Positions 20,079 to 22,039 of a stretch of DNA of 22,771 nucleotides are shown here, one piece after another. The notes beneath the pieces were generated by a model. That model ran no database searches. It had not been told where the DNA came from and saw only the letters and a program-made list of their open reading frames with translations. Within the stretch, counting starts at the first letter, position 1. Each line of letters opens with the position of its first letter. Source of the stretch: a virus. A program made the position numbers and the translations under genes. The stretch lies in IMG/VR virus record IMGVR_UViG_3300008050_004860, positions 1 to 22,771 of that record, one strand, 5' to 3'.

Positions 20079-20443
20079 GTGCAACAGATGCTGAGATTGT
20101 TGAGGCTATTAACCAGAATAATTGGCTTGGTATTGACGGGACAATGTTCGGTGAAATCTGCCGCTATTACGCAGTCGATAAAGGAGCGGGTAAAACGGTT
20201 TATTGTGATCCAGAGACGGACGCTACTATCACCCTATCTGGTAGGCAGTATGATGACGATATGCTTGGCATGTTGGATGGCCCCTTCAGATATGTGGGAT
20301 GGGACTTGATAGATGGATGGGGTGCCATCAAAGCACGACGCGCCCGTACCCATTACATGACTAAGAGACAAGAGAAGGCACTACGACGCGCCAACGCTAA
20401 AGCTAGGAAATTAATTGAAGCTCAAGGAGGCTTAGTACTATGA
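20075..20443 (+). CDS. Uncharacterised early-type protein
   Basis: This 122-residue protein has an N-terminal helical part, a middle with many Asp, Gly and Trp residues (FRYVGWDLIDGWGAIK near 71-86) and a strongly basic C-terminal helix (RQEKALRRANAKARKLIE). I recognise no family. It is coupled by ATGA to both the gene before and the gene after. A basic terminal helix suggests nucleic-acid or nucleoprotein contact, which is inference. Composition is more GC-rich than the leftward operon. Confidence 0.72.
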   Translation: MSATDAEIVEAINQNNWLGIDGTMFGEICRYYAVDKGAGKTVYCDPETDATITLSGRQYDDDMLGMLDGPFRYVGWDLIDGWGAIKARRARTHYMTKRQEKALRRANAKARKLIEAQGGLVL

Positions 20444-20685
20444 AAAAACGAGACGTTAAAAACTCGGAATCTACACCACTGCTGATAGGTAAATACGCGG
20501 TCTATCTACAGGTACAATGCTACCGACGCGATAAGACTACTGGTGAGTATGTATTGGCTACCAAGCCAAGACCTAGACCTATGTCTTTCATGAAGTTTGC
20601 AAGGGAGTATCTAGGACGCGCCAGAGTCGAGGCAAAAGGATACCCATTGCCGCTACATATCGACGGTGTATCACTGACTGACTAG
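20440..20685 (+). CDS. Small basic protein, last gene of early-type operon
   Basis: The 81-residue protein is basic (Lys, Arg) with a beta-like segment (KYAVYLQVQCYRR) and a TKPRPRPMSFMKFAREYLGRAR stretch that may bind nucleic acid. AAGGAGG lies 9 bases upstream of the ATG, and the start overlaps the preceding gene by ATGA. No family is recognised. The terminator follows 23 bases after the stop. Confidence 0.7.
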   Translation: MKKRDVKNSESTPLLIGKYAVYLQVQCYRRDKTTGEYVLATKPRPRPMSFMKFAREYLGRARVEAKGYPLPLHIDGVSLTD

Positions 20686-20708
20686 GCACTACTCCAAGCA
20701 CCATCCTA

Positions 20709-20733
20709 GGGGCGCGATTGCGCCCCTTTTTTT
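20709..20733 (+). terminator. Intrinsic terminator of the early-type operon
   Basis: GGGGCGC pairs with GCGCCCC around GATT, followed by seven T residues. It stands 23 bases after the last stop of the 19911-20685 operon and separates it from the packaging operon starting at 21440. Confidence 0.94.
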
Positions 20734-20929
20734 GTCCAGTAAAAACGTAATACTTAGCAGCTATTTAGAGCCTCCAGAATGGCGCAATCGTGGCACCCTT
20801 TATCGCGGTATTACTCGCCCCTAAATCGTCTCTTAGAAGCTCTTAGAATGAGCTTGAATACTGGTGCTTCATCTAGACGCTAGCACTGGCGGATATCGTC
20901 ACGTTACCCAGTACAAATGAGGGTGTTAA

Positions 20930-21019
20930 ATGGTACGCATATCGCCCCTAATATTACTATGTGTATCCCTGTTATTAGGACTAAATTGGTACTATATAAA
21001 ACATTATATGAATCAATAG
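20930..21019 (+). CDS. Possible 29-residue membrane peptide
   Basis: ATG 20930 has GAGG 7 bases upstream and encodes 29 residues. The core is hydrophobic (PLILLCVSLLLGLNW) with a basic start and a Tyr/His/Lys end, like a single-span micropeptide. It is the only credible coding frame in the stretch 20734-21439. Against it: the AT-rich flank of a likely origin can produce such frames by chance, and no promoter is visible before it. Confidence 0.33.
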   Translation: MVRISPLILLCVSLLLGLNWYYIKHYMNQ

Positions 21020-21086
21020 CTTACACACTTATACATGACTGTCCACAAGTTATTAACAGAGGATGAGAACAATTATCATTAAAGCC

Positions 21087-21157
21087 TGTGGATAAGTCGC
21101 TTTTGTGGATAACTCTGGGGATAAGCTGTGAATAAGTTGTTAGTTTCCTGTGGATAA
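21087..21157. other. DnaA-box cluster, oriC-like
   Basis: The plus strand has TGTGGATAA at 21087-21095, 21104-21112 and 21149-21157, each an exact reverse complement of the E. coli DnaA box TTATCCACA. TGTGAATAA at 21127-21135 also fits the TTATNCACA consensus. TGGGGATAA at 21116-21124 is one base off. All five share one orientation, with starts 17, 12, 11 and 22 apart. A weaker box, CTGTCCACA, faces the other way at 21039-21047. The flank 20945-21080 is AT-rich, as a melting region would be. No dnaA gene is in the window, so host DnaA is the likely ligand. Confidence 0.85.
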
Positions 21158-21163
21158 CTTTTC

Positions 21164-21189
21164 GGGGGTAGGGGAGGGGGCATACGGGG
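21164..21189 (+). other. G-quadruplex motif beside DnaA boxes
   Basis: Four runs of at least four G (21164-21168, 21171-21174, 21176-21180 and 21186-21189) are separated by 2, 1 and 5 bases. This satisfies the standard intramolecular G-quadruplex pattern on the plus strand. It starts 7 bases after the last DnaA box and stands out in an AT-rich region. Three tandem GACCA units (21191-21205) follow directly. Confidence 0.7.
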
Positions 21190-21264
21190 CGACCAGACCA
21201 GACCAAAGCCACACTAAAATTATCTCGGAGAAATGTTCAGACGCTTGAAAAAAGAAATTAACCA

Positions 21265-21291
21265 GAACTTTTCATAAAAAATATTGTCTAA
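21265..21291 (+). promoter_or_regulatory. Sigma-E-type promoter upstream of the packaging operon
   Basis: GAACTT (21265-21270), 16 bases, then TCTAA (21287-21291). It is intergenic and correctly oriented for the operon starting at 21440. A run of A residues precedes the -35, as in many strong ECF promoters. Transcripts would start near 21298 and begin with the hairpin at 21301-21320. No good sigma-70 promoter is visible between 21200 and 21440. The ECF sigma factor encoded at 17321-17884 is the natural candidate to use it; host sigma-E could also. Confidence 0.6.
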
Positions 21292-21300
21292 TACCTTAGA

Positions 21301-21366
21301 AGGTTTATAGTTATAAACCTACGTTAGGAGTCGTAGCCTCCCTAGAGGGTCGGCTCCGAATAACGT
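21301..21366 (+). other. Two hairpins in the leader of the packaging operon
   Basis: AGGTTTATA and TATAAACCT (21301-21320) form a 9-bp inverted repeat with a 2-base centre, exactly where the predicted transcript begins. It is followed by a longer stem. ACGTTA at 21321-21326 pairs with TAACGT at 21361-21366, and GGAGTCG at 21327-21333 pairs with CGGCTCC at 21351-21357 (one G-T pair), with GAA bulged. A 5'-terminal hairpin commonly protects phage mRNA from decay. Confidence 0.6.
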
Positions 21367-21391
21367 TACTAGTAAAAATACATGGGGGTCT

Positions 21392-21418
21392 ATCTGAAGA
21401 GTCAGATAAACTCTTTTT
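21392..21418 (+). promoter_or_regulatory. Two mutually exclusive hairpins with T-run (attenuator-like)
   Basis: ATCTGA (21392-21397) pairs with TCAGAT (21402-21407). Alternatively AAGAGT (21397-21402) pairs with ACTCTT (21410-21415), which is followed by TTT. The two helices share bases, so only one can form. The second with its T-run is a weak terminator shape just before the ribosome site of the 21440 gene. The stems are AT-rich and short, so strong termination is doubtful. Confidence 0.35.
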
Positions 21419-21439
21419 AGTATCTCAATTGGAGTATGT

Positions 21440-22039
21440 ATGGGCTTAGTACGTAAAGCAGATAAAAAGAATCCTCCGACTTACCCCGTAGGGGTAAAAC
21501 CGGATGCATCAATCGAGATGGACGGGAACCTTGGTGGTTTCGCCGCACTCAAGGACGATCAGGGTCGGTTCCGCACCCAGTCCTTATTCTGGGAGATGCG
21601 CAACCCTAAATTCCCGCCCGTCTTTACGACGAAGCGGTACGACCACGAAGGTTGCCTATCAATGTACCAGAAGTACATGGATATAGCTGATCCGACTGAG
21701 TACGAGGTAGCCATAAGGCTACTCGGCTCTTGGGATCACTGGAAAGCCCTGTGCTCTAGCAAATGGTTCGAGGAAATGGTATCAGAGTGGCGAGAAGAGC
21801 TTAAGATACGTATGGACTCGGAAAGATACTGGGAGATGAAGAACGCCGCTGACAAACACGCAGGAACCCCCACAGGTATCCAAGCGACCAAGTGGCTTTC
21901 AGAAAGGTACGGCGAGAAGAGTCCCGTCAAGCGGGGCCGTCCGTCTAAGGCTGAGAAAGCAGCAGCTCTCAAAGAAAAGATTGAAGAAGATACGTACTTA
22001 ACCGAAGACGCAAACATAATAGGACTAAAGACAGTATGA
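21440..22039 (+). CDS. Terminase small subunit-like protein
   Basis: This 199-residue protein has a helical core rich in Trp (LLGSWDHWKALCSSKWF at 94-110, then VSEWREELKIR at 114-124). A helix with IQATKWLSERYGEK at 147-160 and a basic KRGRPSK at 164-170, which resembles an AT-hook, follow. This layout fits phage small terminase (DNA maturase) proteins that recognise the packaging site, and it is the first gene of the rightward structural block. The large subunit is not in the window. GGAG stands 5 bases upstream of the ATG. Codons are richer in G+C than in the leftward operon. Identity is by layout and position, not by a diagnostic active site. Confidence 0.68.
   Translation: MGLVRKADKKNPPTYPVGVKPDASIEMDGNLGGFAALKDDQGRFRTQSLFWEMRNPKFPPVFTTKRYDHEGCLSMYQKYMDIADPTEYEVAIRLLGSWDHWKALCSSKWFEEMVSEWREELKIRMDSERYWEMKNAADKHAGTPTGIQATKWLSERYGEKSPVKRGRPSKAEKAAALKEKIEEDTYLTEDANIIGLKTV

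Follow-up and report, generated by a model that had tools for sequence, protein, structure and literature searches.

What does a tight array of DnaA boxes do in a phage that encodes its own helicase, primase and polymerase? The window, by which we mean the whole 22.8-kb stretch analysed here (22,771 nucleotides, an IMG/VR record of a marine bacterial virus), is part of a tailed-phage genome. Its leftward replication and nucleotide block, comprising an RNR-like gene, exonucleases, PolA, a DnaB-like helicase, a separate primase, a CobT/CobS-like pair and a sigma factor (some of these roles being read from sequence only), is flanked by rightward genes on both sides. With a phrog_8035 gene, TerL, PolA, a CobT/CobS-like pair as in ICP2 and divergent early and late blocks, the phage is Zobellviridae-like, a term that refers to shared genes and layout and not to a formal family assignment; in several Zobellviridae the phrog_8035 gene adjoins TerL. 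The first-pass annotation proposed a bacterial-origin-type module that may exploit host DnaA, and stated that no phage dnaA is present. We likewise find no dnaA gene in the window or in the record of its nearest relative (G001, 46.6 kb), both of which may be incomplete, and with DnaA in neither record host DnaA would be used.

The boxes lie in a non-coding gap at 20685-21440, to the right of two short rightward genes, and the features in and around this gap are as follows.

20317 to 21205: segment that cannot be aligned to G001, with the array inside it in both genomes and largely alignable flanks
20708 to 20735, + strand: intrinsic terminator of the short rightward genes to the left of the gap, with a tail, CCCTTTTTTTGTCCAG, that also occurs in G001
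20945 to 21084: AT-rich flank (70% AT), where unwinding might occur were the element to act as an origin
21011 to 21023, + strand: IHF core AATCAATAGCTTA, an exact match to WATCAANNNNTTR
21087 to 21095, - strand: DnaA box TTATCCACA, exact
21104 to 21112, - strand: DnaA box TTATCCACA, exact
21116 to 21124, - strand: DnaA-box-like TTATCCCCA, one mismatch
21127 to 21135, - strand: DnaA box TTATTCACA, one mismatch to TTATCCACA, fits TTATNCACA
21149 to 21157, - strand: DnaA box TTATCCACA, exact
21164 to 21189, + strand: G-rich run GGGGGTAGGGGAGGGGGCATACGGGG, a four-tract G-quadruplex motif adjoining the last box
21191 to 21206, + strand: GACCAGACCAGACCAA, which holds the threefold GACCA repeat
21284 to 21311, + strand: promoter-like TTGTCT-16-TATAGT, a match to consensus upstream of the rightward operon
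21440 to 22039, + strand: gene for the 199-aa phrog_8035 protein, the first gene right of the array

A sequence scan gives five same-strand matches to TTATCCACA at 21087-21157, which on the + strand read as TGTGGATAA and start at 21087, 21104, 21116, 21127 and 21149 (spacings 17, 12, 11 and 22). The tight, single-orientation array that had been described is thus present, but three of the five boxes are exact and not four, the other two carrying one mismatch each. The four-tract G-quadruplex motif and the three GACCA units (21191-21205) were likewise where they had been reported. The maximum number of boxes per 80 bp in the window is five (at most one mismatch, single strand), and in 300 Markov shuffles every 80-bp stretch held two or fewer; as none of the chance models that we tried yields such an array, a chance origin is ruled out. 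The element thereby contains a DnaA-box cluster, as oriC does, and its sequence predicts DnaA binding. A search of the window against Rfam gave no match.

G001 is the only close relative with this region that we found: queries with the primase and CobS proteins matched it alone, and a query with the phrog_8035 protein matched it and one fragment. Long stretches on either side of the non-alignable segment are 93-96% identical between the two genomes. At the equivalent place G001 carries six TTATNCACA boxes on one strand (spacings 75, 22, 12, 11 and 11), an AT-rich region similar to that of the window, and an IHF core, AATCAATAACTTA, at 30546, preceding the array; the exact core AATCAATARCTTA thus lies to the left of the boxes in both genomes. 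Exact words of at least 11 bases common to the two segments are confined to DnaA-box words, the tail of the terminator and ACCAGACCAGACCAA in inverted orientation. The surrounding DNA has thus been exchanged and the array type retained, which argues strongly that DnaA binding is under selection. The G-quadruplex, on the other hand, does not qualify as a conserved part, since the intact motif is absent from G001, in which no G-quadruplex motif was found.

The edges of non-homology at 20317 and 21205 are sharp in otherwise closely similar genomes and look like modular replacement of the gap; one fragment (L005) also ends at about 21213 in window coordinates. The 15-mer ACCAGACCAGACCAA occurs at 21192-21206 and, in opposite orientation, at 30227-30241 of G001, and may be bound by a phage protein.

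A more distant relative, L014 (eight protein matches to G001, the best at 54% identity), has a three-box array in the equivalent gap, upstream of the late genes. No arrays were found in seven named Zobellviridae, which rules out an origin common to the whole family. The box layout of G001 is unique to it among viral contigs, and the layout of the first four boxes of the window is absent from 84,980 bacterial and archaeal genomes; the window array was therefore not recently copied from an oriC within that genome set.

Head-to-tail arrays are found well beyond this group. Using three TTATNCACA boxes with gaps of 2-3 bases as the pattern and the reversed pattern as control, we obtained at least 120 matching viral contigs in IMG/VR (119 of them re-found in stored DNA) and a single match for the control. 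This result contradicts the earlier view that such an arrangement would rarely accompany a lytic-type replisome: the arrays are common, occurring in at least 119 IMG/VR contigs. The contigs sampled are mostly tailed phages, as judged by terminase, portal or replication genes. Among the 119 listed arrays, 97 lie outside ORFs of at least 90 aa, and the flanking genes diverge in 28 cases, converge in 13 and point the same way in 33. TerL was detected in 23 cluster representatives of the listed arrays, belonging to 15 TerL groups, and the array lies 5' of TerL in every one of them, mostly at 0.1-3 kb. G001 has TerL on the + strand at 38.9-40.4 kb, downstream of its array at 30.6-30.7 kb, and so shows the same non-coding, same-strand placement upstream of TerL. 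IHF cores near the listed arrays number 16 (4.2 expected), and G-runs directly beside them, on the favoured side, number six (0.31 expected), three of the six being from one phage group.

Isolated phages carry the array as well. In GenBank it is found in T5-like, T7-like (Studiervirinae), N4-like Litunavirus and Siaravirus phages, in phages of Arthrobacter, Microbacterium and Lactococcus, and in Microviridae, some of these matches being short or partial with one or two boxes only (e.g. LP14). In Eapunavirus phiEap-1, five exact boxes on one strand lie about 70-175 bp from the record end; Berlinvirus P483 and nasanit also have five exact boxes, and the T5-like DT57C has four. In several isolates of the T7-like, N4-like and SEA phages the array is at or near the genome end, and in several phage groups it is within about 1% of the record end, which equals the physical end only where depositors determined the ends. 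The arrays of Siara and Slocum are inside annotated terminal repeats. Siovirus ICBM1 has a homologue of the gene at 21440 of the window, and its annotated terminal repeat lies 250-420 bp upstream of that homologue. This is where the window has its array, and a terminus there is therefore plausible.

These positions raise the possibility of a terminus or packaging element, in which DnaA and IHF, perhaps with the G-run, would mark or shape the genome end or the region of terminase cleavage, as IHF does at lambda cos. The proximity to TerL, the terminal repeats of Siara, Slocum and ICBM1, the arrays near record ends and the G-runs adjoining arrays are all consistent with such a role. Box orientation relative to TerL is nevertheless mixed (15 versus 8), and no packaging role is known for DnaA, so we regard this explanation as very improbable.

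Two of the isolate groups merit closer comparison. The arrays of the Studiervirinae (phiEap-1, P483, nasanit and Ship_A7) resemble that of the window in having four or five exact boxes on one strand, most of them separated by 11 to 45 bases, in largely non-coding DNA close to or at the genome end; they differ in lying on the early-gene side of the end, in the lack of an IHF core in our search, and in the T7-type replication of their carriers. The injection-stop-signal region of T5-like phages (Demerecviridae), where DnaA boxes have been noted before (PMC13250531), likewise holds a non-coding, one-orientation cluster of exact TTATCCACA boxes in a virulent phage (DT57C), but lies some 5.5 kb into the first-step-transfer DNA of a different phage family, and the exact IHF core is absent from the stretch examined.

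Could the element be a replication origin, as first proposed? In such an origin, oriC- or plasmid-like and dependent on or assisted by DnaA, host DnaA and IHF would open the AT-rich left flank and the phage's own DnaB-like helicase and separate primase would be loaded. The parts fit: besides the boxes and the IHF core, the flank to the left of the boxes is AT-rich as described (70% at 20945-21084 against 59% overall), a similar region is present in G001, the position in the gap is suitable, and phage DnaA was found in neither record. Like oriC, pSC101 and P1 oriR, the element combines DnaA boxes, an IHF site and an AT-rich flank; in contrast to them, it has no recognised initiator gene, iterons or convincing DnaA-trio. 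The trio-like arrangement that had been pointed out proved weak. By the rule that we applied (PMC8287927), only AAT-GAT-AAT beside the leftmost box fits the loosest pattern of three NAN triplets, which arises easily in AT-rich DNA, and no runs of 3'-[G/A]A[T/A]-5' triplets were seen by eye beside the boxes. Cumulative GC-skew, suggested as a check, does reach its minimum near the gap, but at a distance from the array of 1.2 kb in the window and 1.7 kb in G001, and it marks the gap in several array-less Zobellviridae too, so that the array is not singled out by it. A uniform oriC geometry is not borne out over 81 independent array loci, at which the AT-rich side is not fixed and the change in skew is not clearly above control; at 76 array loci the orientation of the boxes relative to the AT-rich side varies (27 positive). 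T7-type replication, moreover, is primed by RNA polymerase and does not need DnaA, which makes it unlikely that the same arrays in T7-like phages are origins. On balance we consider an origin less likely than not.

The array shortly precedes the rightward late genes, and at all 23 other loci with a detected TerL it lies upstream of that gene. This could also mean that DnaA acts here as a transcription factor, the array timing the rightward (packaging and structural) or an early operon, for instance as DnaA is titrated off by accumulating phage copies. The promoter-like site at 21284-21311 lies in a block conserved with G001, and a perfect 9-base inverted repeat, AGGTTTATA/TATAAACCT, at 21301-21320 covers its -10 and is an operator candidate. 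The boxes stop about 125 bp upstream of this site, however, and hence do not form a simple operator, and in T7- and T5-like phages the arrays precede or sit among early or pre-early genes. We therefore consider a primarily transcriptional role improbable.

We favor, tentatively and with a probability of roughly 0.4, the reading that the element is a platform for capturing host DnaA, which would most likely sequester or inactivate it and might also act on a promoter. Between a decoy or regulatory role and a true replication origin, the former is slightly favoured. The case for a module that would bind host DnaA is good, drawing on the array with its AT-rich flank and IHF core, the lack of a phage dnaA in both records and the persistence of arrays in relatives. 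The recurrence of such arrays at genome ends or just upstream of packaging genes in many unrelated phages makes it probable that they serve to capture this host protein. The platform would consist of mostly high-affinity same-strand boxes about one helical turn apart together with an IHF site. It occupies the non-coding gap that separates the leftward replication block from the rightward late genes, and probably lies at or near a physical genome end. Host DnaA would form a short cooperative filament on this platform, assisted by an IHF bend, and would most likely be sequestered or inactivated in a datA-like or decoy fashion, the more strongly as phage genomes multiply; captured DnaA may also act on a nearby phage promoter.

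In E. coli, datA is a high-affinity DnaA-box cluster with an IHF site, and the window element has the same parts list by sequence match. It differs in that datA is chromosomal, promotes DnaA-ATP hydrolysis and has another box geometry, the function of the window element being predicted. Several points speak against the capture of DnaA. About five boxes per genome are too few to titrate hundreds of DnaA molecules before the phage replicates, so that a decoy would have to act catalytically, as datA does, or be present in many copies; since the host chromosome is destroyed by T5- and T7-like phages, these would gain little from a block of oriC; and the AT-rich flank and IHF site of the window fit an origin too.

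A broader form of the proposal is that same-strand arrays, in many cases accompanied by IHF and a G-run, have arisen by convergence in many unrelated phage families at the genome end that is close to the terminase or enters first, and that they are DnaA-capturing devices of the entry stage and not origins. Such a device would hold or anchor the entering DNA, interfere with initiation in the host, or set the timing of phage genes. We put this forward as a possibility, at rather less than even odds.

In the literature that we searched, which was mostly open-access, we found no paper on terminase- or end-proximal DnaA arrays as a general feature of phages. Known already are the T5 injection-stop boxes and an Ori-Finder prediction of an origin with DnaA boxes for one phage (PMC11512268). 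How virulent phages handle the host replication initiator has been little studied, and a DnaA array that recurs at a near-constant position in unrelated phages, T7-like ones included, turns the T5 anecdote into a testable general phenomenon, for which the isolated phages phiEap-1, P483 and DT57C make array deletions feasible.

Seven related phages in IMG/VR (L053, L042, L116, L022, L126, L097 and L089; about 55-95% best protein identity) all have arrays upstream of TerL, several of them large and some with a G-run right after the last box. A Fur-box-like TGAGAACAATTATCA at 21064-21078 (12/14) is the sole match of at least 11/14 in the window. Fur co-regulation as a general companion of the arrays was rejected, a Fur-like match lying within 200 bp in just 3 of the 119 listed arrays; one array, that of L083, has two Fur-like sites.
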